Shown in pieces: positions 5,583 to 23,149 of a stretch of DNA of 38,327 nt. Position 1 is the stretch's first letter. Each line of letters opens with the position of its first letter. A program made the translations under genes and the position numbers. Source of the DNA: Halanaerobium congolense (GTDB taxonomy: Bacteria; Bacillota; Halanaerobiia; Halanaerobiales; Halanaerobiaceae); the NCBI RefSeq assembly GCF_004366375.1, contig NZ_SOEF01000027.1:1-38327 (forward strand), read 5' to 3'. The notes beneath the pieces are model-generated. The model saw only the letters and a list, made by a program, of their open reading frames with translations. It was not told the DNA's origin and ran no database searches.

Positions 5583-6176
5583 ATGAATTATCGTCAAAAA
5601 TTAAATAATTTAATCGAAAAAAATGACGGCCTTGTTTTAACTAAAGAATTGAAAGAAAAAAATATCCCTCGAGAATATTTGTCTATTTTTTTAGAAGAAG
5701 ATAAGTTGGAGAGAATCAAAAGAGGAGTTTATACAACTCCTGCTACTTTTAGTGATGAGATGTATATCATCCAGCAAAAAAATACCAGATTGATTTATTC
5801 ACATGAAACAGTTCTTTATCTACATGATCTAAGTGATAGAGATCCTTTAGAATATACAGCAACTGTTCCTTATGGTTATCATAATCCTTATTTGAAGGAT
5901 GAAAACATTAAAGTTCATACAGTAAAAAAAGAACTTCATTTATTAGGGGTTATGGAAAAAGAAACTATCTACGGCAGGAAAATTAAAGTATATAATAAAG
6001 AAAGAACTATCTGTGATATTTTAAAAGATCGAAATAACATGGACATTTCAACGGTGAATGAAGCTGTCAGAAAATATTTAACGGGGAAAGATAAAGATTT
6101 ACATTTGCTTTTGGATTACGGCGATAAATTAAAAATCAGTAGTATCTTAAGAAAATATTTGGAGATGTTTGTATGA
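5583..6176 (+). CDS. abiEi: AbiEi-family antitoxin (type IV toxin-antitoxin)
   Basis: A 197-residue protein. Residues 1-50 form the winged-helix DNA-binding part (LVLTKELKEKNIPREYLSIF, then LERIKRGVYTTPATF). The rest is the antitoxin domain with YSHETVLYLHDLSDRDPLEY, TVPYGYHNPYL, and the C-terminal KVYNKERTICDILKDRNNMD. In characterised AbiE systems AbiEi represses the operon and counteracts the nucleotidyltransferase AbiEii; the pair can abort phage infection. It overlaps the next start by four bases (ATGA). It looks complete, although its partner is broken. Confidence 0.9.
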   Translation: MNYRQKLNNLIEKNDGLVLTKELKEKNIPREYLSIFLEEDKLERIKRGVYTTPATFSDEMYIIQQKNTRLIYSHETVLYLHDLSDRDPLEYTATVPYGYHNPYLKDENIKVHTVKKELHLLGVMEKETIYGRKIKVYNKERTICDILKDRNNMDISTVNEAVRKYLTGKDKDLHLLLDYGDKLKISSILRKYLEMFV

Positions 6177-6631
6177 AAAATTTAATGCAACTAAAAGATT
6201 TAATTAAGAATTTGACCAAAGAAAAAAATATTAATAGTCAGGTGCTTTTAAGAAATTACATGATGCAGCGATTATTATTAAAAATTGCAAATTCTGATTA
6301 TAAGAATAACTTTATCCTTAAAGGTGGTATGTTAGTTGCGGATTTAGTGGGGATTGAATCAAGAAGTACAGTAGATATGGATCTTACTATAAAATCTTTT
6401 AGCCTAACCAGAGAAAATATCACAGAAGTTTTTGCAGAAATATTTTTAACAGAAACTGAAGATGGGATTGAATTTAAATTAAAGAAGATAGAGAAAATAA
6501 GAGAGGAATCTGAATATAAAGGGTTTAGGCTATCTATATTGGCATTAATGGGTAAAGCTAAAATACCTTTAAAAATATACTTAACAACAGGAGATAAACT
6601 GACACCATCTGAAATTAATTATAGATATTAA
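6173..6631 (+). pseudogene. abiEii: AbiEii-family nucleotidyltransferase toxin, truncated
   Basis: The 152 residues cover only the N-terminal half of the usual 250-300. The nucleotidyltransferase core is visible: FILKGGMLVADLVGIESRST followed by VDMDLTI, the GG and D-x-D elements that bind metal and nucleotide. The frame ends at LTPSEINYRY, exactly where the family normally continues into its long C-terminal helical part. From there the DNA is unrelated. Loss of the toxin while keeping the antitoxin is a common decay path. Confidence 0.8.
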
Positions 6632-11015: not shown

Positions 11016-11462
11016 ATGGAAATTTCAGCACAGGGAAGATATGCACTCAGAGCCCTGGTCGATCTGGCAGTAAATGCTAAGGACTCTGCCCTTCCTTTAA
11101 GAGAAATCTCTGAGAGACAGAATATCTCAGAAAGATATTTAGAACAGATATTTGCCAGATTAAAAAAGGCAGATCTAATAAAAAGTGTGCGCGGAGCTCA
11201 CGGTGGGTATTTATTGACTAGACCGCCAGAAGAAATCACTGTTAAAGATATCATGCAGGTAATAGAGGGTCGGCTGGCTCCAGAGGTTGAGCCAGAAAAA
11301 CATTCGGAAGAAGAACTCTATCAACAGATGGCCCAGGAACTCTGGACCAAAATGGAATCAAACCTTTATCAGCTGCTGGAATCTATAACTCTGGCAGATT
11401 TAAAAGAAAGAACTTTGGAACTTAGAAAAGAAAATAATGAAGGTTATATGTACTATATTTAA
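11016..11462 (+). CDS. Rrf2-family transcriptional regulator (CymR-like)
   Basis: A 148-residue winged-helix regulator with an AGGAG ribosome-binding site. The family signature is clear: ISAQGRYALRALVDLAVNA, then PLREISERQNISERYLEQIF, then the wing VRGAHGGYLLTRPPEEITV. The whole protein has no cysteine, so it cannot hold the Fe-S cluster of IscR or NsrR. That points to the CymR branch, which senses cysteine status through CysK in Bacillus and represses sulfur genes. Standing at the head of the sulfur island, it is the likely regulator of that island. A terminator separates it from the next gene. Confidence 0.85.
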   Translation: MEISAQGRYALRALVDLAVNAKDSALPLREISERQNISERYLEQIFARLKKADLIKSVRGAHGGYLLTRPPEEITVKDIMQVIEGRLAPEVEPEKHSEEELYQQMAQELWTKMESNLYQLLESITLADLKERTLELRKENNEGYMYYI

Positions 11463-11512: not shown

Positions 11513-11559
11513 ATGTTCATTTATGTTCACGCACCGGGTAGGTGAACATAAATGAACAT
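11513..11559. repeat. 18-bp perfect inverted repeat (REP-like hairpin)
   Basis: Arms 11513-11530 and 11542-11559 are perfect complements around an 11-base loop with CACCGGGT. Each arm itself holds a doubled ATGTTCA. It starts where the Rrf2 terminator ends. It could be a mobile palindrome of REP type or a large protein-binding site. Confidence 0.75.
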
Positions 11560-11595: not shown

Positions 11596-11624
11596 TTGAC
11601 ATAGGACTAAATATCCTGTATTAT
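11596..11624 (+). promoter_or_regulatory. Promoter and putative operator of the sulfite reductase gene
   Basis: TTGACA, 17 bases, TATTAT. The spacer is filled by TAGGACTAAATATCCTG, in which AGGA and TCCT are inverted. A similar sequence lies upstream of cysD at 19762. A regulator such as the Rrf2 protein could bind here. Confidence 0.6.
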
Positions 11625-11691: not shown

Positions 11692-14046
11692 ATGAGTGAG
11701 GCAGTGTTTAGAATACCTGAGACAATCAGGGAAGATACAGGAAAGTTCAAGAAAAATTTAAAGCAGTTTTTAGCAGGCGATTTATCGGCTGAACGGTTTA
11801 AGGGCTATCGGGTACCGATGGGAATCTACGGCCAGCGGGGTGACTTTAAAGAAGAAAAGTACATGGTCAGAGTTAGAATTCCCGGAGGTTTTTTGACAGA
11901 GAAGCAGTTTAGACTGCTGGCCGAGTTGAGTAGAGACTATGGTGCTGGCTATCTGCATTTTACCACCAGACAGGATATTCAGCTGCACCAGATTGAGATA
12001 GATGAGAGTGCAGAAGTTTTAGATAAACTTTTAAAGGCAGGACTGAGTCCGCGTGGTGGTGGAGGTAATACCGTTCGCAATATAATGAATTCTCCTACAG
12101 CAGGTGTTGATCCGGCAGGTAGATTTGATACAACTGCTCACTGTCTGGCCTTAAGTGAATATTTACTGGCAGATCGTTCTTCTTTTAATCTGCCCCGAAA
12201 GTACAAGATTGCATTTTCAGTTAGCCATCAGGACCAGGGGCTGGCAACAATTAATGACTTAGGTTTTATTGCCTCTCTTCAGGATGGCCGCAGGGGTTTT
12301 AAGGTTTATGCAGCTGGAGGAATGGGTAATCAGCCGGCAGTGGCTTTTAAGCTGCTTGATTTTGTGGCAGAAAATGAAATTTTTGCTGTGGCAGAGGCAA
12401 TTAAAAGATTATTTGACCGCTATGGTGATCGCAATAACAGGAATCAGGCGCGTCTGCGTTTTGTCCGCCGCCGTTTTGGAGAAGCTAAATTTAAAGAATT
12501 ATTTTTGGAATACTTTGAGCAGGTTAAAGCAGAAGCTGAGACCGGTGAATTAAAATTTACTGATCTTGACTATTATAAAGATAAAATTGAATCCGGAAAA
12601 GCAGCAGAAGTTCTAAATCTAAATCCGCTCAATGGGGATTTAAATTATCAGGAAGTAATTGATTTAATTCAGCTGCTTGAGAAATATGATCTTAGTCTAA
12701 GAACAACTAATAGGCAGGGCTTACTTTTAAGAGGTGTGGATAGCTCTCAACTTGAAGCTTTAAAAGAAGATTTAGCAGCAGTTAATCAGAGCCTGCTTGA
12801 TTCTGATGCATTATCGGCAGTTGCCTGTAAGGGAGCTTCTACCTGTAGACTGGGTCTCTGTCATTCACCAAATCTGGCGGAAGCTATCAGGGAAAATCTC
12901 TTAGAAATTGAACAGCAAAAACGTGATCTTTTACCCCAGATTTATATCAGCGGCTGCCCCAATTCCTGTGGTCAGCATCATATCGGGAAAATTGGATTTG
13001 AAGGAAAGGCCAAACGAGAAAACGGCAGATTAATCCCCTATTATTCACTTCTCCTGGGAGCCGAAGTAAGTGAAGAAAATACTCAATATGCGCAAAAAAC
13101 TGTTGATCTACCGGCCAAAAGGATTCCTTCCTTTTTAGTAGAGCTGGCAGAAAAACTGGCAGCAGCAGAAGATTATAGTCTGGAGCGGTTTAATGACTAT
13201 CTGGAAACTGGAGGCCGGGAAGCAATTATTCAGCTTGCTCAAAAATATACAGAAATTCCTGCCTACAGTAAGGAAGCAGATTTTTATCAGGATTGGGGTC
13301 AAAATGAGGACTTTTCTCTGGCCGGACGAGGTCCTGGAGAATGTGGAACCGGTGTGCTGGAGATTGTTAGGTTGGATCTTGATCAGGCGGAAGCTGCCTA
13401 TGAGCAGGGAATTGCCGAAGAGGACAGCGACAGCCTCTATCAGGCAATTATTGCAGCTGCCCGTTCACTGCTAATAGTCCGCGGGGTTGATACAGAAAAG
13501 GATAGAGTAATCATTAAAGAATTTAAAAAGAAATTTATCGCAGAAGACTGGGTTGCAGAATCAAAAGAGGAACTGCTGGAACAGGCACTTGATTATCGAC
13601 TGGGTGATCAGGAAGAACTATTAAGCCTAAGTTCGGAGATTAAAGATTTGATTGAACGCTTAGAAGATCTATTCAATTCTTTAAATTCAAGCCTGGAATT
13701 TACAATTAAAAAAGTGACTGCAGTTGAAGATGCCGGGGATAACGATTCGGCAGCGACAGATTTTGTTTCTAAAAATAGCGAAAACGACAAAGCAGCTGCA
13801 GCAGAGAAAGAAAATTATAAACTAAAAGATTTAAGAGGAGTACAGTGTCCAATTAACTTTGTTAAGGCCAAACTCTTTTTGGAGCCGCTGCCGGCAGGAG
13901 AGATTGTTGATTTTTACTTAGATGAGGGTGAGCCGATTAAAAATGTGCCCCGCAGTCTGGAAAATGAGGACCACGAGATTATAAAAAATGAAAAACAGCC
14001 TGAGGGTCATTACCTGCTGCGGGTTAAAAAAGCAGCAGCCAATTAA
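11692..14046 (+). CDS. Assimilatory sulfite reductase fused to a C-terminal TusA domain
   Basis: A 784-residue protein starting at the ATG behind GAGGGTGAG. Residues 1 to about 550 form a ferredoxin-type siroheme reductase (NirA/Sir class): half-domains with RVPMGIYGQRG, YLHFTTRQDIQLH and RGGGGNTVRNIM, and the siroheme-[4Fe-4S] cysteines C379, C385, C422 and C426 (ACKGASTC and SGCPNSC). Sulfite is reduced to sulfide. Residues about 560-690 form a helical linker resembling a HEPN-type bundle. Residues 711-784 are a TusA-like sulfur carrier with the cysteine in LRGVQCPINF (normally C-P-x-P). The fusion suggests that sulfur is passed on covalently. Downstream metY and the APS reductase genes support sulfite as substrate rather than nitrite. 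Confidence 0.88.
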   Translation: MSEAVFRIPETIREDTGKFKKNLKQFLAGDLSAERFKGYRVPMGIYGQRGDFKEEKYMVRVRIPGGFLTEKQFRLLAELSRDYGAGYLHFTTRQDIQLHQIEIDESAEVLDKLLKAGLSPRGGGGNTVRNIMNSPTAGVDPAGRFDTTAHCLALSEYLLADRSSFNLPRKYKIAFSVSHQDQGLATINDLGFIASLQDGRRGFKVYAAGGMGNQPAVAFKLLDFVAENEIFAVAEAIKRLFDRYGDRNNRNQARLRFVRRRFGEAKFKELFLEYFEQVKAEAETGELKFTDLDYYKDKIESGKAAEVLNLNPLNGDLNYQEVIDLIQLLEKYDLSLRTTNRQGLLLRGVDSSQLEALKEDLAAVNQSLLDSDALSAVACKGASTCRLGLCHSPNLAEAIRENLLEIEQQKRDLLPQIYISGCPNSCGQHHIGKIGFEGKAKRENGRLIPYYSLLLGAEVSEENTQYAQKTVDLPAKRIPSFLVELAEKLAAAEDYSLERFNDYLETGGREAIIQLAQKYTEIPAYSKEADFYQDWGQNEDFSLAGRGPGECGTGVLEIVRLDLDQAEAAYEQGIAEEDSDSLYQAIIAAARSLLIVRGVDTEKDRVIIKEFKKKFIAEDWVAESKEELLEQALDYRLGDQEELLSLSSEIKDLIERLEDLFNSLNSSLEFTIKKVTAVEDAGDNDSAATDFVSKNSENDKAAAAEKENYKLKDLRGVQCPINFVKAKLFLEPLPAGEIVDFYLDEGEPIKNVPRSLENEDHEIIKNEKQPEGHYLLRVKKAAAN

Positions 14047-14145
14047 GCGAGTGACAGTTGATATCGAGCAGTTAAATTGATGGCAGTAAACATTATTGTA
14101 TTGAGTGCAGCTTGATTTCAAAAAGATTGTAAGAGGAGTGAGAAG

Positions 14146-15384
14146 ATGAGTAGAGACTATCAATTTGAAACTAAGGTTTTATTAAATAAAAATAAAGACG
14201 AAAAAGGGGCTGTTTCTCCCCCTATTTATCAGACAAATGCCTTTGAGTATGAAACAGCCGAAGAACTGGAAAAAGTATTTAAGGGGCGGGCTCAGGGATA
14301 TAATTACACCCGGGTTGGTAATCCGACCAATAATCAGTTTGAAGAAAAGATGAAGGAACTGGAGAATGGAATTGGAGCTCTGGGGACAGCCTCCGGTATG
14401 GCAGCTATTGCAACTGCAGTGCTGGGATTGGTGGAAGCTGGAGATGAAATCATTGCTGGTAACAGCCTCTTTGGTGGAACCTATAATTTTTTTAAAAAAG
14501 ATTTAAAACAGTGGGGTGTTAAATGCAGCTTTGTCGAGACAACTGAACTGGAAGAGTACAGGCAGGCAATTACTCCAAAGACAAAATTGATTTATCTGGA
14601 AACAGTAGGCAACCCCAAACTTGATATTCCGGATATTAAAAAGCTGGCTGAACTTGCCCACAAACATAACTTACCATTGATTTTGGATAATACGCTGATG
14701 ACCCCCTATCTTTTTCAGGCAAAGGATTATGGAGTCGATATTGTAGTTCATTCAACTTCTAAATTCATCAATGGCAGCTCCAATTCTATCGGTGGGGTGA
14801 TTATAGATACTGGTAATTTTAACTGGGCTGAAACTGATAATCCCCTGCTGGCAGAATATCTTAAATTTGGTCCCTTTGCCTATCTGGCAAAATTGAGGCA
14901 GGATATTTTTCGGAATCTGGGTCCGGTGGCAAGTCCCTTTAATTCTTTTCTCAATAATCTGGGGGTGGAAACTCTGCCCTTAAGGATGGAAAAACACTGC
15001 AGTAATGCGCTGGAGCTGGCAAATTTTTTACAGTCGGCAGTCGGAGTGGAAAGGGTTAATTATCCGGGGTTTAAATCAAGTCCATACCATGAGCTGGCAG
15101 CAGAGCAGTTTGATAATCATTTTGGTGGACTTTTGACCTTTGAGGTGGAGAATAAAGAACAGGCATTTAAGTTAATTAATAAGCTGGAGCTTGCCCGGAA
15201 TCTGTCCAACCTGGGAGATTTGAGAACCCTGGTTGTCCATCCGGAGTCAACGATTTATCACAGCCTGAGTAAAGACGAGCAGCAGCAATTAGGAGTTAAT
15301 CCGGCCTTGATTAGAGTTTCGGTTGGAATCGAAAACCCGGATGATATTATTTTAGATTTTAAAGAAGCACTGGCAGCACTCTAA
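14146..15384 (+). CDS. metY: O-acetylhomoserine sulfhydrylase (Cys/Met metabolism PLP enzyme)
   Basis: A 412-residue PLP enzyme of normal length with an AGGAGTGAG ribosome-binding site. Key parts are YNYTRVGNPTNNQFEEKM, GTASGMAAIATAV, LETVGNPKLDIPDI, the cofactor-ring aspartate D181 in LILDNTLMTPYL, and the Schiff-base lysine K206 in VVHSTSKFINGSS. MetY makes homocysteine from O-acetylhomoserine and sulfide or, in Wolinella, a protein thiocarboxylate. It sits between the sulfite reductase and APS reductase genes and near a carrier/E1/JAMM set, which makes the thiocarboxylate route likely. A cystathionine synthase or lyase role is less likely in this context. Confidence 0.92.
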   Translation: MSRDYQFETKVLLNKNKDEKGAVSPPIYQTNAFEYETAEELEKVFKGRAQGYNYTRVGNPTNNQFEEKMKELENGIGALGTASGMAAIATAVLGLVEAGDEIIAGNSLFGGTYNFFKKDLKQWGVKCSFVETTELEEYRQAITPKTKLIYLETVGNPKLDIPDIKKLAELAHKHNLPLILDNTLMTPYLFQAKDYGVDIVVHSTSKFINGSSNSIGGVIIDTGNFNWAETDNPLLAEYLKFGPFAYLAKLRQDIFRNLGPVASPFNSFLNNLGVETLPLRMEKHCSNALELANFLQSAVGVERVNYPGFKSSPYHELAAEQFDNHFGGLLTFEVENKEQAFKLINKLELARNLSNLGDLRTLVVHPESTIYHSLSKDEQQQLGVNPALIRVSVGIENPDDIILDFKEALAAL

Positions 15385-15398
15385 GTGGAGGCAGTAAA

Positions 15399-17123
15399 AT
15401 GGAGAAAAAAATTATAAAAACTGATCTTCTGGTTATTGGAGGTGGGGCTGCTGGCTCATATGCTGCAGTTACCGCCCGCAGAGAGGATCCAGAACTTAAT
15501 GTAACAGTCATCGAAAAAGCACATATAGAGAGAAGCGGCTGTCTGGCGGCGGGAATTAATGCGATAAATGCCTACTTGAATCCCGGTGAAACTCCAGAAT
15601 CATATCTTCATTATGTTAAAAATGACAGCTATGGTCTGGTCCGTGATGATCTGGTTTATTCTATCGGGCGGGGGCTAAATAAGGTGACCCGGGAGGTGGA
15701 AGACTGGGGCTTAAAGATTTTAAAAGATGAGGATGGAAATTATTTAAAGCGCAGTTCCCGCAGTATTAAGATTGAAGGCGAGAATTTTAAAGAAATCCTG
15801 GCGGATGAGGTTGAGCGGAGTGGAGTCCGAGTTTTAAACAAAACAGCTGCCCTTAATTATATAAAAAAAGATGGAAGAGTCTGTGGTGCTTTTGCACTTA
15901 ATTTAAGAGAAGATAGGTTTTATGTGATTAAAGCAAAGGCTGTGATCTGTGCCACCGGAGGAGCAGCCGGAATTTATGAACCCAATAATTCCGGTCGAGC
16001 CAAACATAAAATGTGGTATCCTCCTTTTAATACCGGAGCCGGTTATGCAATGGGCATTAGAGCCGGAGCTGAGATGACAACCTTTGAGATGCGTTTTGTG
16101 GCCTTAAGGGTTAAAGATGTGATTGCTCCTACAGGTAGTTTTGCCTTTGCTGGCGGCCGCCAGGTCAACCAGCAGGGAGAAGAATATCTAAAAAAATATA
16201 GTAGAATTACTACTGCGATGAGGCTTTATGCAACTGTCAGAGAGAATAAAGAGGGGCGCGGTCCCTGTTATCTGGATCTCGGTCATCTGGAAGCTGATAA
16301 GAAGGAAAAACTGGCAGAGTCTTTGCTAGGAATGTGTCCTGGAGTTGTGCTCAAGTGGGAGGATAACCAGCAGGAATTTTCAGAACTCAAGGTAGAGATT
16401 GAAGGAACCGAGCCCTATATAGTCGGCGGCCACTGTCAGTCAGGTTACTGGATCGGGCTGGATCGGAGTACAACTCTGCCCGGGCTTTTTGCAGCCGGTG
16501 ATGTGGCAGGAGGAGCTCCAAAAAAATATGTAACCGGGGCCTTTGTTGAAGGTGAAATAGCAGCCAAATCAGCGGTTAGAGAAATAAAGGAGCTGCCGCA
16601 AAATTTTTTAGATATAAATATAAGTGAGTTAATCACTAATGAATACCAGAGGGTTAAAACTGTTTTAGATAACCCGGAGGGAGCTGCAGCTTCCCGGCTG
16701 GAAGAAAAACTACAGCAGATTATGGAAAACTACGCCGGGGGCAGAAGTCAGTATTATGAACTGGAAGCTTCAAAATTGAAGCAGGCGCGTTCAAAATTAA
16801 AAGAGTTAAAAGCAGAGTGTAGAAATCTGAAGGCGGATTCTCTGAGAGACTTTCTGGCTGTTCAGGAACTGCTGGAAAGAATCGATGTAGCAGAAGTCCT
16901 GATCGAACATCTGCTTTATAGAGAGGAAACTCGCTGGCCCGCTTATCAGAGCCGTCTTGATTTTCCGCAGCGTAAAAAGGAGTGGCGGAAGTTTGTTAAT
17001 TCCAGACGCAGTCCTGTCACTGGAAAAATTGAGATTATAGAAAGAGAGTATAAAAGCCTGGAGGAATATTCCTCCTTTGCCGACCGCAGTCAGGAAGATT
17101 TTTATCTGGAATACAATTTATAA
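15399..17123 (+). CDS. aprA: APS reductase alpha subunit-like flavoprotein (AprA-like)
   Basis: A 574-residue FAD protein of the fumarate reductase/AprA family, 14 bases behind metY. The FAD fold is LLVIGGGAAGSYAA (9-22). Substrate-side motifs are close to AprA: MWYPPFNTGAGYAMGIRAGA, EMTTFEMRFVALR, and GGHCQSGYWIGLD with the probable catalytic H345. GLFAAGDVAGGAPKKYVTGA closes the FAD site. The C-terminal 150 residues are helical. AprA reduces adenosine 5'-phosphosulfate to sulfite and AMP with electrons from AprB. In an island with MetY and no dissimilatory dsrAB or qmo genes, an assimilatory role is inferred. Confidence 0.88.
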   Translation: MEKKIIKTDLLVIGGGAAGSYAAVTARREDPELNVTVIEKAHIERSGCLAAGINAINAYLNPGETPESYLHYVKNDSYGLVRDDLVYSIGRGLNKVTREVEDWGLKILKDEDGNYLKRSSRSIKIEGENFKEILADEVERSGVRVLNKTAALNYIKKDGRVCGAFALNLREDRFYVIKAKAVICATGGAAGIYEPNNSGRAKHKMWYPPFNTGAGYAMGIRAGAEMTTFEMRFVALRVKDVIAPTGSFAFAGGRQVNQQGEEYLKKYSRITTAMRLYATVRENKEGRGPCYLDLGHLEADKKEKLAESLLGMCPGVVLKWEDNQQEFSELKVEIEGTEPYIVGGHCQSGYWIGLDRSTTLPGLFAAGDVAGGAPKKYVTGAFVEGEIAAKSAVREIKELPQNFLDINISELITNEYQRVKTVLDNPEGAAASRLEEKLQQIMENYAGGRSQYYELEASKLKQARSKLKELKAECRNLKADSLRDFLAVQELLERIDVAEVLIEHLLYREETRWPAYQSRLDFPQRKKEWRKFVNSRRSPVTGKIEIIEREYKSLEEYSSFADRSQEDFYLEYNL

Positions 17124-17145
17124 TATTTTAAGGGAGTGAAGTCAA

Positions 17146-17451
17146 ATGGCAATTAAAATTGATAAGAGCATCTGTGATGGCTGTCCGGATTATCAGGAAG
17201 GTCGCTGTGAGCGGATCTGTCCCGGTAATTTAATTGCAAAAGAAGGCGAGAAGGCAGAAATGAAAAGGCCGGCCGAGTGTTGGGACTGTGCAGCCTGTGT
17301 TAAAGCCTGTCCCCGTAATGCCATTAGTCTTTATCTGCCCGAAGAAATTGGAGGTCAGGGAACAGAGCTTAAAGTTCAGCAGAATCAAAAACGTTCACTC
17401 TGGATTTTCGATAAAGAAGATGGAAGCCGGAAAGTTTATAAAACTGGTTAG
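17146..17451 (+). CDS. aprB: APS reductase beta subunit-like ferredoxin (AprB-like)
   Basis: A 101-residue iron-sulfur protein with a GGGAGTGAAG ribosome-binding site. Two [4Fe-4S] sites are visible: C10, C13, C21 and C25, then C45, C48, C51 and C55. The eight-residue insertion between C13 and C21 is typical of AprB. The C-terminal tail is short (about 45 residues, with the motif SLWIFDKEDGSRKVYK); dissimilatory AprB is around 150 residues with a longer tail that wraps AprA. It would pass electrons to the FAD of the upstream AprA-like subunit. Confidence 0.87.
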   Translation: MAIKIDKSICDGCPDYQEGRCERICPGNLIAKEGEKAEMKRPAECWDCAACVKACPRNAISLYLPEEIGGQGTELKVQQNQKRSLWIFDKEDGSRKVYKTG

Positions 17452-17479
17452 TACCAGGTTAAAGAGAAATATTTCACTT

Positions 17480-17515
17480 GTACCAGGTACAAATAGGCCT
17501 ATTTGTACCTGGTAC
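17480..17515. repeat. 36-bp perfect palindrome
   Basis: A loop-free palindrome centred between 17497 and 17498, made of three nested palindromes: GTACCAGGTAC, AAATAGGCCTATTT and GTACCTGGTAC. Another TACCAGGT lies at 17452. It separates aprB from the carrier-E1 gene. It may be a strong cruciform, a transcript-stabilising hairpin or a protein-binding site. Confidence 0.85.
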
Positions 17516-17558
17516 CTATAAATATATAAATATATAAATAAATAAAGGAGGACAATAA

Positions 17559-18581
17559 ATGAGCATTAAAATTACTGTCAATGGGGAAGAAAAAGAGATT
17601 AAACAAGGTTTAAATCTGGCTGAACTACTGGCTGAGCTGGAGGTGGATCCTGAGGTAACCGTTGCTAAATTAAATGATTCGATGGTACCCCAGGGAGAAC
17701 TGGCGGAGAGAGATGTGGAGTCAGGTGATAATATTGAATATATTTTCTTTATGGGAGGAGGCGCTTTCGATTTAACTGAAGAAGAAATCGAGCGCTACAG
17801 TCGCCACATTATTCTAAAAGACCTGGGTGGAACCGGTCAGCAGAAGATTAAAGATGCGAAAGTGCTGGTAGTTGGAGCAGGGGGACTTGGTTCTCCTGTT
17901 GCTTTTTATCTTGCTGCTGCCGGAGTCGGCATTCTGGGACTGGTTGACAGTGACCATGTGGATCTGACAAATCTTCAGCGGCAGATTCTGCATACAACTG
18001 AGGATACAGGTCGGCCCAAGGTGGATTCGGCCCGCGAAAAACTGGAAGCAATGAACCCCAATGTTGAAGTAAAAACATATAATCAATATTTAAATAAGGA
18101 TAATGTAAAAGCAATAATAGCCGACTATGACATTATAGTCGATGGAGTTGATAATTTCCCCACCCGTTACCTTTTAAATGATGCCTGTGTGATGGCCGGA
18201 AAACCGCTGGTTGAGGCAGGAATCCTGCAGTTTTCAGGTCAGCTGACAACAATTATGCCGGGTGAGGGTCCCTGCTACCGCTGTATTTTTGCTGAGCCGC
18301 CAAAAGAAGGAGCGATTCCGAGCTGTCAGGAAGCAGGAGTTCTGGGAGCAATCGCAGGTACAATTGGAACCCTGCAGGCAACAGAAGTTTTAAAGCTGAT
18401 TACAGGTATTGGCAGGCCTCTTGTTGGCAGAATGTTAGTTTATGATGCAAAAGATCTTTCCTTTAGAGAGGTAGAAGTCAAAAAAAGTGACAAATGTGAT
18501 GTCTGTGGTGATAATCCGGTGATTACAGAACTGATGGAATATGAACTGAGCTGTAATTTGCATCAGCAGGCTGAGGCGTAA
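17559..18581 (+). CDS. Fused sulfur carrier and E1-like adenylyltransferase (ThiS/HcyS + ThiF/HcyF)
   Basis: A 340-residue protein with an AGGAGG ribosome-binding site. Residues 1-68 are a ThiS-like beta-grasp carrier ending in MGGG (G66-68). Without a break the chain continues into a ThiF/MoeB/HesA domain: ERYSRHIILKDLGGTGQQKI, the ATP site VVGAGGLGS (105-112), the catalytic cysteine C256 in PSCQEAGVLG, and zinc ligands C239/C242 and C313/C316. The carrier's diglycine, which must be free to be adenylated and turned into a thiocarboxylate, is thus internal. The JAMM protease gene downstream is the obvious candidate to cut there. The neighbouring metY suggests homocysteine synthesis rather than thiamine or molybdopterin. 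Confidence 0.9.
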   Translation: MSIKITVNGEEKEIKQGLNLAELLAELEVDPEVTVAKLNDSMVPQGELAERDVESGDNIEYIFFMGGGAFDLTEEEIERYSRHIILKDLGGTGQQKIKDAKVLVVGAGGLGSPVAFYLAAAGVGILGLVDSDHVDLTNLQRQILHTTEDTGRPKVDSAREKLEAMNPNVEVKTYNQYLNKDNVKAIIADYDIIVDGVDNFPTRYLLNDACVMAGKPLVEAGILQFSGQLTTIMPGEGPCYRCIFAEPPKEGAIPSCQEAGVLGAIAGTIGTLQATEVLKLITGIGRPLVGRMLVYDAKDLSFREVEVKKSDKCDVCGDNPVITELMEYELSCNLHQQAEA

Positions 18582-18602
18582 ACACTGCAAAGGAGTGAAC
18601 AA

Positions 18603-19025
18603 ATGGCAAAGTTAATTCTTAAAAAAGAAGATTATCAAAAAATTTTAGAGTATTCTCTGCAGCATAAACCGGTAGAGGCCTGTGGAATTATAGCGGGAAT
18701 TATTGATGAGGATGCAGGAAAATATTTTTCAACAAAAATTTATTTAATGGAAAATATTAAAAATAGCCCCGAACATTATTTAATGGAACCGGAAGAACAG
18801 TTTGATGTTTTTAACGATATGCGGGAAAATGAGCTTGATTTTATTTCAGTATTTCATTCTCATCCACATTCACCGGCGCGTCCTTCTCAGGAAGACATTG
18901 AGATGGCCAATTATAAAGAGGCTATCTACTTAATTATTTCTCTGCAGCAGGAGCAGGAAGATTTTAGAGCCTATTTTATTCAGGATGAGCAGTCAGAGGA
19001 AATAGAAGTTGAAGTTGAAATTTAA
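18603..19025 (+). CDS. JAMM/MPN+ zinc metalloprotease (HcyD/QbsD/Mec-like)
   Basis: A 140-residue protein with an AGGAGTG ribosome-binding site, 21 bases after the carrier-E1 gene. All JAMM ligands are present: E25 (VEACGIIAG), H85-S-H87, then S95 and D98 (FHSHPHSPARPSQED). Related bacterial enzymes trim the residues after the Gly-Gly of sulfur-carrier proteins or release an amino acid bound to the carrier end: QbsD in quinolobactin synthesis, Mec+ with CysO, and HcyD in Wolinella. Here it could both free the carrier from the E1 and release homocysteine. It probably acts in the cytoplasm; no signal peptide is seen. Confidence 0.9.
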   Translation: MAKLILKKEDYQKILEYSLQHKPVEACGIIAGIIDEDAGKYFSTKIYLMENIKNSPEHYLMEPEEQFDVFNDMRENELDFISVFHSHPHSPARPSQEDIEMANYKEAIYLIISLQQEQEDFRAYFIQDEQSEEIEVEVEI

Positions 19026-19070
19026 ATTTTTTGTGGATAGCAAGCCTCTTAAAATTAAGTCGAATATTAT

Positions 19071-19100
19071 TTGCAAATTACTAGCAATTTGCGATATAAT
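19071..19100 (+). promoter_or_regulatory. Promoter and putative operator of coiled-coil cassette 3
   Basis: TTGCAA, 18 bases, TATAAT. The inverted repeat of copy 2 is kept with one mismatch (TTGCAA-ATTAC-TAGCAA). The leader TATCTGGAGAATACGAAGAG is identical to copy 2. Confidence 0.65.
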
Positions 19101-19140
19101 ATATGTATCTGGAGAATACGAAGAGGGGCAGGTGAATGAG

Positions 19141-19617
19141 ATGTCAGAAGCTAAAATTTTAGAGACACTTGTCAGCCGTTTTGACCAGTTGGATAAGAGA
19201 TTGGACAGTAAATTTGAACAAATAGATCGGCGTTTTGATCAAATTGATAAGCGTTTCGAAAAAGTAGATAAGCGTTTTGATCAAATTGATAAACGTTTCG
19301 AAAAAGTAGATAAGCGTTTTGATAGTGTTGAAAACAAATTAGATGAACATGATCAGCGATTTGAGAGCATTGATCAGCGCTTTGACAAGCTGGATAATGT
19401 TCTTGCAGAACAGGATATTAAATTCTTTAATATTAACAAAAAACTAACAAAACAAAGTGATCAATTTGATGAGGTGAATTATTCAATTGATAAGATTTAC
19501 AATCAAACTTCTCGCCTGAGCCTTGAACAGGGTAAACTGGCTATGAAAATTGATCAGCTTAAAAATTCTACTGCTGAAAAAAATGAAAAGAATGAGAAAA
19601 AGATCAATAGTATCTAA
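19141..19617 (+). CDS. Heptad-repeat coiled-coil protein, family copy 3
   Basis: A 158-residue protein from the ATG at 19141. The frame is open further upstream, but that part lies over the promoter. Head MSEAKILETLVSRFDQLDKR, then about 12 heptads of the type F-[DE]-[QK]-[IV]-D-K-R including alternating DQIDKRF and EKVDKRF, then a non-repeated part and the tail IYNQTSRLSLEQGKLAMKID. It is predicted to be almost wholly helical, soluble and strongly charged. It is the only member that looks complete with both promoter and terminator of the shared type. It lies inside the sulfur island between the JAMM and cysD genes, which suggests insertion of a self-contained unit. Function unknown. Confidence 0.78.
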   Translation: MSEAKILETLVSRFDQLDKRLDSKFEQIDRRFDQIDKRFEKVDKRFDQIDKRFEKVDKRFDSVENKLDEHDQRFESIDQRFDKLDNVLAEQDIKFFNINKKLTKQSDQFDEVNYSIDKIYNQTSRLSLEQGKLAMKIDQLKNSTAEKNEKNEKKINSI

Positions 19618-19660
19618 AAATTATTAAGTGATATTAAGGTGATTTTTAAACTTAAATACG

Positions 19661-19699
19661 AGGAGCAGTTCTTGGTTTTATTTGAGGGCTGCTCTTTTT
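19661..19699 (+). terminator. Terminator of coiled-coil cassette 3
   Basis: GAGCAG pairs with CTGCTC, followed by five T. It matches the terminator of copy 2, including the following TTCT. Confidence 0.75.
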
Positions 19700-19761
19700 G
19701 AATGTGCCTTGTTTTTAGGGCAGCTTTTTGATAAAATCTAATCAGCTGAAATTAAATATTT

Positions 19762-19784
19762 TAGGTTCTAAAATTCCTGATAAT
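19762..19784 (+). promoter_or_regulatory. Putative operator and -10 region of the cysDNC operon
   Basis: TAGGTTCTAAAATTCCTG followed by GATAAT resembles the spacer and -10 box of the sulfite reductase promoter (11602-11624). The -35 region is poor, which would fit an activated or tightly controlled promoter. Confidence 0.4.
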
Positions 19785-19825
19785 TCGACAATGATTCTGA
19801 AATTTAAAACAAAGCAATTCAATTA

Positions 19826-19862
19826 ATTTGGTAATAATTGGTTCCGTAAACGGTAGTTGCAC
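19826..19862 (+). repeat. 37-bp element before cysD (copy A)
   Basis: Matches the reverse complement of 25303-25339 at 32 of 37 positions, so it points towards cysD as the other copy points towards the SLC13 gene. It contains GGTTCCGTAAACGG. It ends eight bases before the cysD ribosome-binding site. It could be a cis-regulatory leader, a binding site or a relic of mobile DNA. Confidence 0.65.
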
Positions 19863-19880
19863 CTACAAGGAGGGTCAAAT

Positions 19881-20762
19881 TTGGATCATTTAGATAAATT
19901 AGAAAGCAGAAGTATTCATATTTTGAGAGAAGCATACAGTGAATTTAATAATATCTGTATGTTGTGGTCAGTTGGTAAGGACTCAACAGCAATGCTCTGG
20001 CTGGCCAGAAAGGCATTTTTCGGTCATGTTCCAATTCCACTAGTACATATTGACACCAGCTATATGATTCCTGAGATGATTGAACACCGGGATAAACTGG
20101 CCAAAAAGTGGAATCTGGATATGATTTATGGTCAGGACGAAGAAACACTGGCAGCAGGAGACACCTTTCCTAATGGCGGGGCAACTCATTTGGAATGCTG
20201 TGGGCGCTTAAAAACAGCTGCCCTTAAAAATACCTTAAATGGTAATTGGCGCCGCTACAGGTACAATCACAATAAAGACGAGTATGAACTGGACAGCAAC
20301 CGTGAACCCTATACAGGTGTAATTGTTGGTGCCAGAGCAGATGAGGAGGGTTCCCGTTCCAAAGAGAGATATTTCTCTCCCCGGGACCGCAACAATGACT
20401 GGGATATTGGAGACCAGCCGCCTGAATTCTGGGATCAGTATAAAACAGATTTTGCACCCGGTACCCATGTCCGGATTCATCCACTTTTAGACTGGACTGA
20501 ACTTGATGTCTGGGAATATATTCAGCGCGAAAAAATACCAATGGTCTCACTCTATTTCGACCAGGGTCAGGGTAAACGCTACCGCTCTTTAGGCTGTGCA
20601 CCCTGTACTGAGCCGGTGGAATCTACAGCCTCCACAGTTGATGAGGTAGTAGAAGAACTTAAAACAGGTAAATTTGCCAATATTGCTGAGCGTGAAGGCA
20701 GAGCTCAGGATAAAGAAGATGGTGGCGGTCTGGAAGAACTGCGTAAAGACGGGTATATGTAG
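19881..20762 (+). CDS. cysD: Sulfate adenylyltransferase subunit 2
   Basis: A 293-residue protein. I take the TTG at 19881 because AGGAGGG lies at the right distance and the chain then begins [20 protein letters not shown], the usual CysD start. The PP-loop for ATP is [10 protein letters not shown] (30-39). Later family motifs are [60 protein letters not shown] and [15 protein letters not shown]. With the CysN GTPase it makes APS from sulfate and ATP. It precedes cysN by six bases. Confidence 0.95.
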
Positions 20763-20768
20763 GGGGTA

Positions 20769-22580
20769 ATGATGAATAATACAAAAGGAGAACAGGATTT
20801 AAATTTAGTTATTGCAGGCCATGTTGATCACGGAAAAAGTACGATTATTGGGAGAATGCTGGCAGATACAGATTCTCTACCTGAGGGTAAATTAGAACAG
20901 GTTAAAGAAACCTGCCGCAAAAATTCAAAGCCTTTTGAATATGCTTTTTTGCTTGATGCTTTAAAAGATGAGCAGGCACAGGGGATTACCATTGATTCAG
21001 CGAGGGTCTTTTTTCAAACAGATATGAGACAGTATATTATCCTCGATGCTCCCGGGCATATTGAATTCTTAAAAAATATGGTAACCGGTGCTGCCAGAGC
21101 AGAAGCAGCTCTTTTAGTAATCGATGCCTCAGAAGGAGTTAGGGAAAACTCCCGCCGCCATGGCTATATGCTTTCCATGCTCGGGATTAAACAGATTGCA
21201 GTTGTGGTCAACAAGATGGACTTAGTTGACTATGATCAGGATACATATCAGAAGATTGTAGAAGAATACACCGACTTTTTAGCTGAAATTGGCCTGGAAG
21301 CAGAAACTTTCATTCCGGTCAGCGGGATGCTCGGTGATAATGTAGCAGCTCAGTCAGATAAGATGGACTGGTATCACGGTCAGACTGTTTTAGAACAGTT
21401 AGACAGCTTTGAAAATGAGGCCTTACCACATAATAAGCCTTTTCGGATGCCGGTTCAGGATGTCTATAAATTTACCAAAGGTGGAGATGACCGCCGCATA
21501 GTAGCCGGTACAGTAGAAGCCGGAGAAATGAATGTTGGGGATGAGGTAGTTTTCTATCCTTCTGGTAAAAAGAGTACAGTTAAAAGTATAGAAGGTTTTA
21601 AAGAAGATAAACAGCATAAGGTTAAGGTCGGTAAGGCAACCGGTTTTACCCTGGATGAGCAGATTTATATTACCCGGGGTGAGCTTGCTGCTCGGGCTGA
21701 TGAAGCTGAGCCCAGGGTTTCAGCAAGAATCAAGGCCAATTTATTCTGGCTGGCCCGTCAGGATTTAGTTAAAGATAAGGTCTATTACTTAAAGGTGGGA
21801 ACAGCTAAAGTTAAAGCTCGTCTGCAAAAAATAAATCGAGTAATTGATGCTTCCAATCTAAATCAGGATGAAAACAAGGAAAAAATCGAGCGCCATGATG
21901 TGGCTGAGGTAGTCTTTAAACTTGACAGGGCGATGGCTTTTGACCTGGCAGGAGAAATAGAAGAAACCAGCCGCTTTGTCATTGTCGATGAATTTGAGAT
22001 TGCCGGTGGTGGAATCATCTCTGAAGCCTTAGAAGATGAGCAGAGCTGGGTCCGGGAAAAGGTTATGCGCCGCAACTATAAGTGGGAGCAGTCTTTGATC
22101 AGCCGCGAAGAAAGAGCAGAAAAATATAATCAGAAATCAACTCTGATTCTAATTACCGGAGAAGAAGATGTTGGTAAAAAACCAACTGCTAAAGCCCTAG
22201 AAAAGCGATTATTTAATGATGGTAAGGTTGTTTATTTTCTAGGAATTGGTAACCTCCTTTATGGTGTTGATGCCGATATTAAAAACGGTAATAATAATAA
22301 TCAGGAAGAACACCTGCGTCGTCTGGCAGAAGTTTCTCATCTAATGTTAGATGCAGGAGCTATTTTAATTGTTACAGCAGTTGAATTAACTCAAGCTGAT
22401 TTAGAATTGATTAAGACAACTGTTAACCCACAGCAGATAGAAACAGTCTGGCTGGGGGATCGAGTCACAACTGATCTCGAATTTGACCTTCATATTCCAG
22501 AGTTCACTTCTGAAGATCAGGTATCAGCTCAGATTAAGGGATTACTGCAAGACAGGGGGATCATTTTTAGACCATGGTAG
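20769..22580 (+). CDS. cysN: Sulfate adenylyltransferase subunit 1 with a degenerate APS-kinase tail
   Basis: A 603-residue protein. Residues 1 to about 430 are the CysN GTPase: P-loop GHVDHGKST (17-25), [20 protein letters not shown], the NKMD specificity motif, then EF-Tu-like beta barrels. It drives sulfate activation with CysD. Residues about 455-603 look like a CysC APS kinase domain, as in CysNC fusions, but the P-loop reads [11 protein letters not shown] instead of G-x-S-G-S-G-K-S-T, and the DGDN segment is not evident. Kinase activity is therefore doubtful. A separate, intact CysC follows with a seven-base overlap. Confidence 0.92.
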
Positions 22581-23149
22581 ATAACATTAAGTGGCATTCA
22601 GGTGAAATAAATAAAGCTGCCCGGGAAGAACTTTTGGGGCAGCAGGGTATGGTCCTTTGGTTTACCGGGCTTTCGGGCTCTGGTAAATCAACCATTGCCG
22701 TAGAGGTAGAAAAGGAGCTTTACCGGAGAGGTAAAGCCTGCTACCGCCTTGATGGTGATAATCTGCGCTTTGGTTTAAATAAGGACCTCGGCTTTACAGC
22801 CGAAGACAGAGAAGAAAATATCCGCCGGATTGGTGAGGTAGCTGCTCTTTTTGCAGATGCTGGTTTAATAACCTTAGCTTCTTTTATCTCCCCTTACAAA
22901 GAGGGGAGAGAAGCTGCTCGTCAGGCTGCTGGAGTAGATAATTTTAAGGAAATCTATGTTAAAGCAGATGTCGAGACCTGTGCTGAGCGGGATCCTAAAG
23001 GCCTTTACGACAAGGCTAAAAAAGGTGAAATCGAAAACTTTACCGGGATTTCAGCTCCCTATGAAGAGCCAGAAAATCCGGATCTTATTGTAGATACTAT
23101 GAGTTTAAGCCTGGAAGAATCAGTGGAGCTGGTGCTGGAGCTGCTTTAA
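22574..23149 (+). CDS. cysC: Adenylylsulfate (APS) kinase
   Basis: A 191-residue enzyme of normal length. The P-loop is [17 protein letters not shown]; then [74 protein letters not shown] and [20 protein letters not shown] complete the family pattern. It phosphorylates APS to PAPS. Because reduction here appears to use APS directly through AprAB, PAPS may serve sulfotransferases, or the two routes may coexist. Its start lies inside the end of cysN, so the two are translationally coupled. The operon ends here, 15 bases from a convergent gene. Confidence 0.95.

Follow-up and report, generated by a model that had tools for sequence, protein, structure and literature searches.

How does sulfur that has been reduced at a siroheme reach a ubiquitin-like carrier protein when reductase and carrier are encoded side by side? 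The question is raised by a contig of Halanaerobium congolense, of which positions 1 to 38,327 (the window) are analysed here and in which a sulfite reductase (SiR) ends in a TusA-like domain and shares an operon with a carrier, its E1 enzyme and a JAMM protease. The answer that we favour, and regard as probable from comparison of sequences, is a hand-over by the tethered TusA domain, which would accept sulfur from the SiR and pass it on to the carrier adenylate. The protein and its parts are as follows:

11692–14046, + strand: SiR-helical-TusA protein, a single chain of 784 residues (open reading frame, translation and Pfam; 18 full-length fusions in the class, counting this one, plus seven in other Bacillota)
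11692–13251, + strand: NirA-type two-repeat siroheme/4Fe-4S sulfite reductase core, approximately residues 1–520 (Pfam NIR_SIR and NIR_SIR_ferr)
13336–13347, + strand: G549-E550-C551-G552 (GPGECG), an invariant non-cluster cysteine motif (C551 in 24/24 complete fusions)
13345–13701, + strand: helical domain, approximately residues 552–670, with a weak HEPN resemblance (hhalign; low-confidence helical model)
13702–13824, + strand: polar low-complexity tether of 41 residues, joining the helical domain to TusA
13828–14031, + strand: TusA-like domain with C719, in CPIN, as its only cysteine (PF01206: protein 52 bits, genome search 56.9 bits)

The ATG at 11692 is backed as the start of the 784-residue frame by AGGGTGAG, which lies immediately 5' of it, and by the starts of relatives, which fall at the same place. 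Near copies of the window, at ~90% identity, occur in two Halanaerobium saccharolyticum genomes, the only two returned by the contig scan. NIR_SIR (148 bits) and NIR_SIR_ferr (108 bits) each match the protein in two stretches; the core has the two ferredoxin-like/4Fe-4S repeats of the NirA type, and its four cluster cysteines (C379, C385, C422 and C426) are kept in all SiRs aligned. Full-chain AlphaFold2 modelling on four sequences gave a mean pLDDT of 42.5 and an unusable model.

Pfam places TusA at residues 713–780 with 52.2 bits (curated cut-off 28.6). The sole cysteine of the domain, C719, lies within VQCPIN, and the CPxP motif is absent, the fourth place being held by Asn instead of the usual Pro. 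The C719-P720-x-N722 arrangement is no chance feature, since it is constant in all 24 complete fusions and in one relic. C719 itself is invariant in the 42 cluster TusAs read, fused or standalone, every one of which has CPx[N/T], whereas 31 further TusAs from the class, taken for comparison, have CPxP. In a tree built on 72 alignment columns only, the fused and standalone cluster TusAs lie together on one side of a branch that separates them from the 31 CPxP proteins (SH-aLRT 97), and the fused domains form a clade within them (support 81). The domain shares with the TusA/SirA family (PF01206) its fold family and active cysteine, but differs in its CPx[N/T] motif, in its fusion to sulfite reductase or clustering with it, and in its separate clade; three further TusA domains in the host genome are of the CPxP kind. 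We take C719 as the putative persulfide carrier. A decayed operon in genome G046 (L043:9793-10053) has kept TusA as an 86-residue open frame with CPMN; its SiR part is gone and its AprA is shortened.

Only one other non-cluster cysteine, C551, is kept with C719 in 24/24 complete fusions. It stands where the helical region begins and had been passed over in the earlier note. The GEC cysteine is common to Bacteroidota and Thermus SiRs that have no TusA and, if judged by these, C551 would be older than the TusA fusion. Those NirA-type enzymes (L044 and L046 from Bacteroidota, L045 from Thermus) share the SiR core and the GEC cysteine, and the Bacteroidota ones the helical domain as well, but they are without TusA and have no annotated E1/JAMM neighbours. 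On a plasmid of Thermus oshimai (L045:7938-9662) the SiR ends in GRGECAV, so that its GEC cysteine is part of a free tail. Scans of viral contigs for relatives returned one Bacteroidota-type SiR; an IMG/VR contig that carries phage-like genes terminates in such an SiR, which has a GEC motif (L049:5965-7848), possibly at a prophage border. C390, tried as a third relay cysteine, was rejected: it is invariant within the class but is Gly in L090 and L091.

In hhalign, the helical region aligns with the domain at the C-terminal end of Bacteroidota SiRs (probability 95.5%, E = 1.4e-8). The Pfam HEPN model scores 15.9 bits, below its cut-off of 22, and a low-confidence model of the domain alone (pLDDT 55) had a Foldseek hit to 2hsb with E = 0.13 (best E ~0.1), so that the resemblance to a HEPN fold is suggestive. 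The tether that follows varies between about 20 and 50 residues in relatives, a range that leaves out L015 and L095, and a polar tether of this length would allow a swinging TusA domain. The earlier note's single chain of sulfite reductase, helical part and TusA is thus borne out by frame, Pfam and 25 fusions; its reading of one TusA cysteine in VQCPIN, with Asn at the fourth place, agrees with the sequence, and that cysteine proved invariant among homologues. What it had called a helical linker is indeed helical, going by the low-confidence model, but is a conserved domain with a 41-residue tether and not a plain linker.

The gene heads a cluster at 11692–23149 in which all genes are on the + strand, in the order SiR-TusA, MetY, AprA, AprB-like, ThiS-E1, JAMM, coiled-coil protein, CysD, CysN-like and CysC. 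With the regulator upstream, the neighbours are:

11016–11462, + strand: Rrf2-family (CymR/IscR-like) regulator, upstream (PF02082, 132 bits; CymR model below cut-off)
14146–15384, + strand: MetY, O-acetylhomoserine sulfhydrylase family (PF01053; best NCBIfam match TIGR01326, 457 bits, just under the cut-off)
15399–17123, + strand: AprA, APS reductase alpha (NCBIfam PRK06854, 799 bits, cut-off 557)
17146–17451, + strand: AprB-like ferredoxin (Fer4; TIGR02060 below cut-off)
17559–18581, + strand: ThiS-like carrier fused to E1 at the junction MGGGAFDLTEEEIERYSRH, without rhodanese (Pfam ThiS and ThiF)
18603–19025, + strand: JAMM (Prok-JAB) metalloprotease (PF14464, 75 bits; HSHP and S..D invariant in the alignment)
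19009–19617, + strand: uncharacterised coiled-coil protein, between the JAMM gene and cysD
19857–23149, + strand: CysD, CysN-like and CysC, sulfate activation (Pfam/NCBIfam)

The succession SiR, MetY, carrier-E1, JAMM given earlier holds, but AprA and AprB, which lie between MetY and carrier-E1, had been missed. Among the relatives' loci, the coiled-coil gene occupies its place in Halanaerobium L027 and L028 only. A promoter-like TTGACA-17-TATTAT lies at 11596–11624; it ranks first among 48 sites in the stretch that was scanned, against a chance expectation of 38. Between it and the Rrf2 gene, a perfect 18-base inverted repeat with an 11-base spacer (ATGTTCATTTATGTTCAC / GTGAACATAAATGAACAT, 11513–11559) is a candidate operator, and a short imperfect palindrome around AGGACTAAATATCCT (11600–11620), within the spacer of the promoter-like site, is possibly of Rrf2/CymR type. 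Elsewhere in the window, a protein with an AbiEi-type antitoxin domain (5583–6176) overlaps the gene at 6173–6631, possibly as an AbiE-like toxin-antitoxin pair.

Operons with a carrier, an E1 without rhodanese, JAMM, SirA, sulfite reductase and O-acetylhomoserine sulfhydrylase were described by Iyer, Burroughs and Aravind in 2006 (PMC1779556, Table 1 row 4e), who predicted that SirA/TusA fills the role of the rhodanese as sulfur donor to the carrier. Our cluster has the features of that row: ThiS and an E1 that lacks a rhodanese domain, as they noted for this operon class, JAMM with its metal motif, TusA (fused), sulfite reductase, O-acetylhomoserine sulfhydrylase and ATP sulfurylase. In their operons, SirA is separate and the fusion noted is that of ThiS to sulfite reductase, whereas here TusA is joined to the reductase through the GEC/helical region and ThiS is joined to E1. 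Thiocarboxylates are described as arising when a protein persulfide attacks the adenylated carrier, and a JAMM-type protease is needed before a capped carrier can be activated (PMC6006322). The separate ThiS proteins of relatives carry a short tail, variable in length, after MGGG, and in the fused carriers MGGG continues directly into E1. A JAMM cleavage site is likely at the ThiS-E1 junction, after MGGG; cleavage of fused carriers by JAMM was suggested by Iyer et al. (PMC1779556).

Across 59 genomes of the class, we found 18 full-length fusions and one TusA-only relic; no two-repeat SiR of this kind turned up there without the fusion. Seven more fusions with 36–41% identity, all from outside the class and one of them split over two contigs, came from 398 genomes drawn from the phylum. 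Bacillota were sampled evenly and searched in depth, other phyla were viewed through plasmids only, and the plasmid searches found no TusA-fused SiR. In the SiR-core tree, the fused proteins group together at a cost of three state changes; one gain and two losses of the fusion would fit, although long branches lead to the unfused rows nested among the fused ones. On this distribution, the fusion is real and old. Elsewhere, a plasmid of Halomontanus rarus (L047:3050-5590) carries another sulfurtransferase-SiR fusion, an archaeal one, of 846 residues with two rhodanese stretches before a two-repeat SiR; it adjoins an F420 hydrogenase beta-like gene. A siroheme reductase match in G236 (C1:2824568-2825236) sits in an 865-residue frame, much longer than its relatives and perhaps a further fusion.

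The link to carrier-E1 and JAMM that the earlier note proposed is strong. E1/JAMM adjoins 23 of the 25 fused loci, and one more (G025) ends at a contig edge: AprB is the last gene before its contig stops, and JAMM is found close to the beginning of a different contig. Within the class, the fusion is at most 10 kb from ThiS/E1 and JAMM in 16 of 18 loci; all seven fusions outside it lie next to E1 and JAMM, with the genes running E1, JAMM, SiR-TusA wherever this could be read, unlike the window. JAMM is present in 17 of the 59 class genomes, all 17 of which have the fusion (Fisher p = 6e-14, uncorrected for relatedness). The exception is G048, whose fusion retains both C719 and C551, yet whose genome has no JAMM match, with no E1, ThiS or MetY near the gene. 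Among the unfused large SiRs, only two of 17 are near E1/JAMM, both in clusters with a small SiR and standalone TusA of their own, so that linkage stands at 24:1 for fused (G025 counted as linked) against 2:15 for unfused large SiRs (Fisher p = 2e-8, relatedness not removed). A phylogeny-aware test of fusion against linkage found only two independent contrasts on supported branches, the fused genes looking like one lineage.

The acceptor enzyme is less constant. MetY, which serves in the window, is found together with a PALP cysteine synthase in several relatives, and PALP alone stands beside the E1-JAMM-SiR-TusA core in G109 and G147 (the G147 gene placed by 65% identity to that of G109). The core is therefore constant while the amino-acid acceptor enzyme changes. 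In G016, a 25-codon MetY-like remnant (L032:12208-12282, 72% identity) between PALP and ThiS-E1 suggests a lost metY.

Clusters in which the fusion is missing keep a sister TusA beside another SiR. Fifteen of 20 JAMM loci without the fusion have a small SiR and a standalone TusA, commonly in the order ThiS, E1, JAMM, SiR, TusA, MetY, AprA, CysD, CysN; among the remaining five, two are ended by a contig edge, two are without both genes and one has TusA but no SiR. The small SiR is unrelated to the large fused one (in L132 it has 294 residues, Fer4 domains and no GEC motif), and its standalone TusA, with CPxT or CPxN, belongs to the same subfamily as the fused domain. Since one TusA subfamily thus accompanies two different SiRs in clusters of one kind, TusA is the partner that stays constant between reductase and carrier, and we consider this association the strongest evidence that TusA would act between the two. 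Tethering is not essential to the system, because most other Bacillota clusters encode TusA as a protein of its own. A second, fragmentary cluster in G137 (L186, C2:3900-5400) contains a partial E1, then JAMM with a TusA stretch immediately after it, and a partial PALP, with no SiR match between them.

The mycobacterial CysO-CysM-Mec+ pathway likewise uses a carrier thiocarboxylate and release of the amino acid by a JAMM protease; the acceptor in the window is MetY and not a PALP synthase, which G109 and G147 have. Closer is the methionine pathway of Wolinella (HcyS/HcyD/HcyF/MetY; Krishnamoorthy and Begley, 2011), where sulfur is reportedly given as free bisulfide made by sulfite reductase. 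That pathway shares MetY, carrier, E1, JAMM and the sulfite reductase source with our cluster, which differs from it in the tethered TusA. The literature searched, thin on subscription journals, returned no account of SiR and TusA in one chain, of the CPx[N/T] clade, of small SiR plus TusA being exchanged for the large fused SiR or of the invariant GEC, a silence that is weak evidence of novelty.

We picture the overall route as a protein-thiocarboxylate path of the CysO/HcyS type from sulfate to homocysteine, with SiR-TusA as its presumed sulfur-donating enzyme. CysDN and AprAB would supply sulfite, which would be reduced at the siroheme of the SiR core; the tethered TusA would accept the sulfur so reduced on C719, as a persulfide in all probability and perhaps through C551, and would hand it on to the E1-held ThiS-like carrier at its adenylated C-terminal glycine. 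MetY would then transfer the sulfur to O-acetylhomoserine, and JAMM would trim the carrier and free the product. We infer every one of these chemical steps, including the persulfide, direct transfer from the siroheme and the use of C551. The persulfide on C719 is less sure, because its formation from fully reduced sulfide costs two electrons; TusA would have to receive sulfur at the S(0) level, or depend on an oxidant or disulfide, or on another form of sulfur. Counted against sulfur transfer by TusA are this redox cost, the Wolinella precedent with its reported use of free bisulfide, the G048 fusion without JAMM, the absent fourth-place Pro and the single lineage with its two independent contrasts.

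TusA could instead be a docking module: the SiR would free sulfide that attacks the carrier adenylate, and TusA would merely keep the SiR close to the E1-carrier and so raise local sulfide. Such a route is thermodynamically simple and has its precedent in the reported charging of Wolinella HcyS with bisulfide, and the lost Pro may mean altered chemistry; we nevertheless think it rather unlikely, as a pure dock would not need the C719 that all 42 cluster TusAs keep. That the TusA sulfur comes from elsewhere, for instance from a cysteine desulfurase, or that the domain serves tRNA or cofactor thiolation and its fusion to the SiR is incidental, would accord with what TusA-family proteins do in other bacteria. 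It is very improbable here, where the TusA clade is confined, in this sample, to SiR/E1/JAMM clusters, beside or fused to two SiR types, and where the three CPxP domains of the genome are available for such work. We give still less credence to a nitrite reductase or other siroheme reductase in place of the SiR. The best NCBIfam matches, to NirA and ferredoxin-nitrite reductase models, would point that way, but all are below cut-off and no equivalog cut-off is reached; the operon, moreover, is entirely one of sulfate assimilation, and PF01077 finds no further siroheme reductase in the genome. Sulfite is the presumed substrate, assigned from the operon context.

A sharper form of the favoured transfer by TusA would be a relay between C551 and C719 in the manner of DsrC, in which sulfur leaves as S(0) after a four-electron reduction and normally becomes a protein-bound persulfide or trisulfide in place of free sulfide. 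It would solve the redox problem and would give a role to the only two non-cluster cysteines kept throughout the complete fusions, and the GEC motif is likewise kept in Bacteroidota SiRs and at the C-terminus of the Thermus oshimai SiR. We hold the relay to be doubtful, for C551 also occurs without TusA in other phyla, the small SiR of L132 has no GEC, and no structure puts C551 near the siroheme. The idea shared with DsrC and dissimilatory sulfite reductase is that of a cysteine arm taking sulfur from the siroheme, but there is no homology and the enzyme here is assimilatory. Membership of the DsrC family was rejected, as the Pfam and NCBIfam scans gave no DsrC match; the protein works like DsrC at most. 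At its furthest, the SiR would release no sulfide at all, C551 and the tethered C719 taking S(0) from the siroheme and passing a protein persulfide to the carrier in a channelled complex, a proposal that we put forward as speculative.

Whether an assimilatory SiR frees its sulfide or passes it on is usually hard to test, donor and acceptor being separate. In SiR-TusA they are in one chain with two invariant cysteines, and natural controls exist in the operons with a small SiR and separate TusA, in the G048 fusion without JAMM and in the GEC SiRs without TusA. With the fusion, the 2006 prediction of a TusA supply of sulfur to ThiS/E1/JAMM systems would become open to direct test, and a ubiquitin-like carrier would be linked to sulfite reduction through a covalent hand-over.
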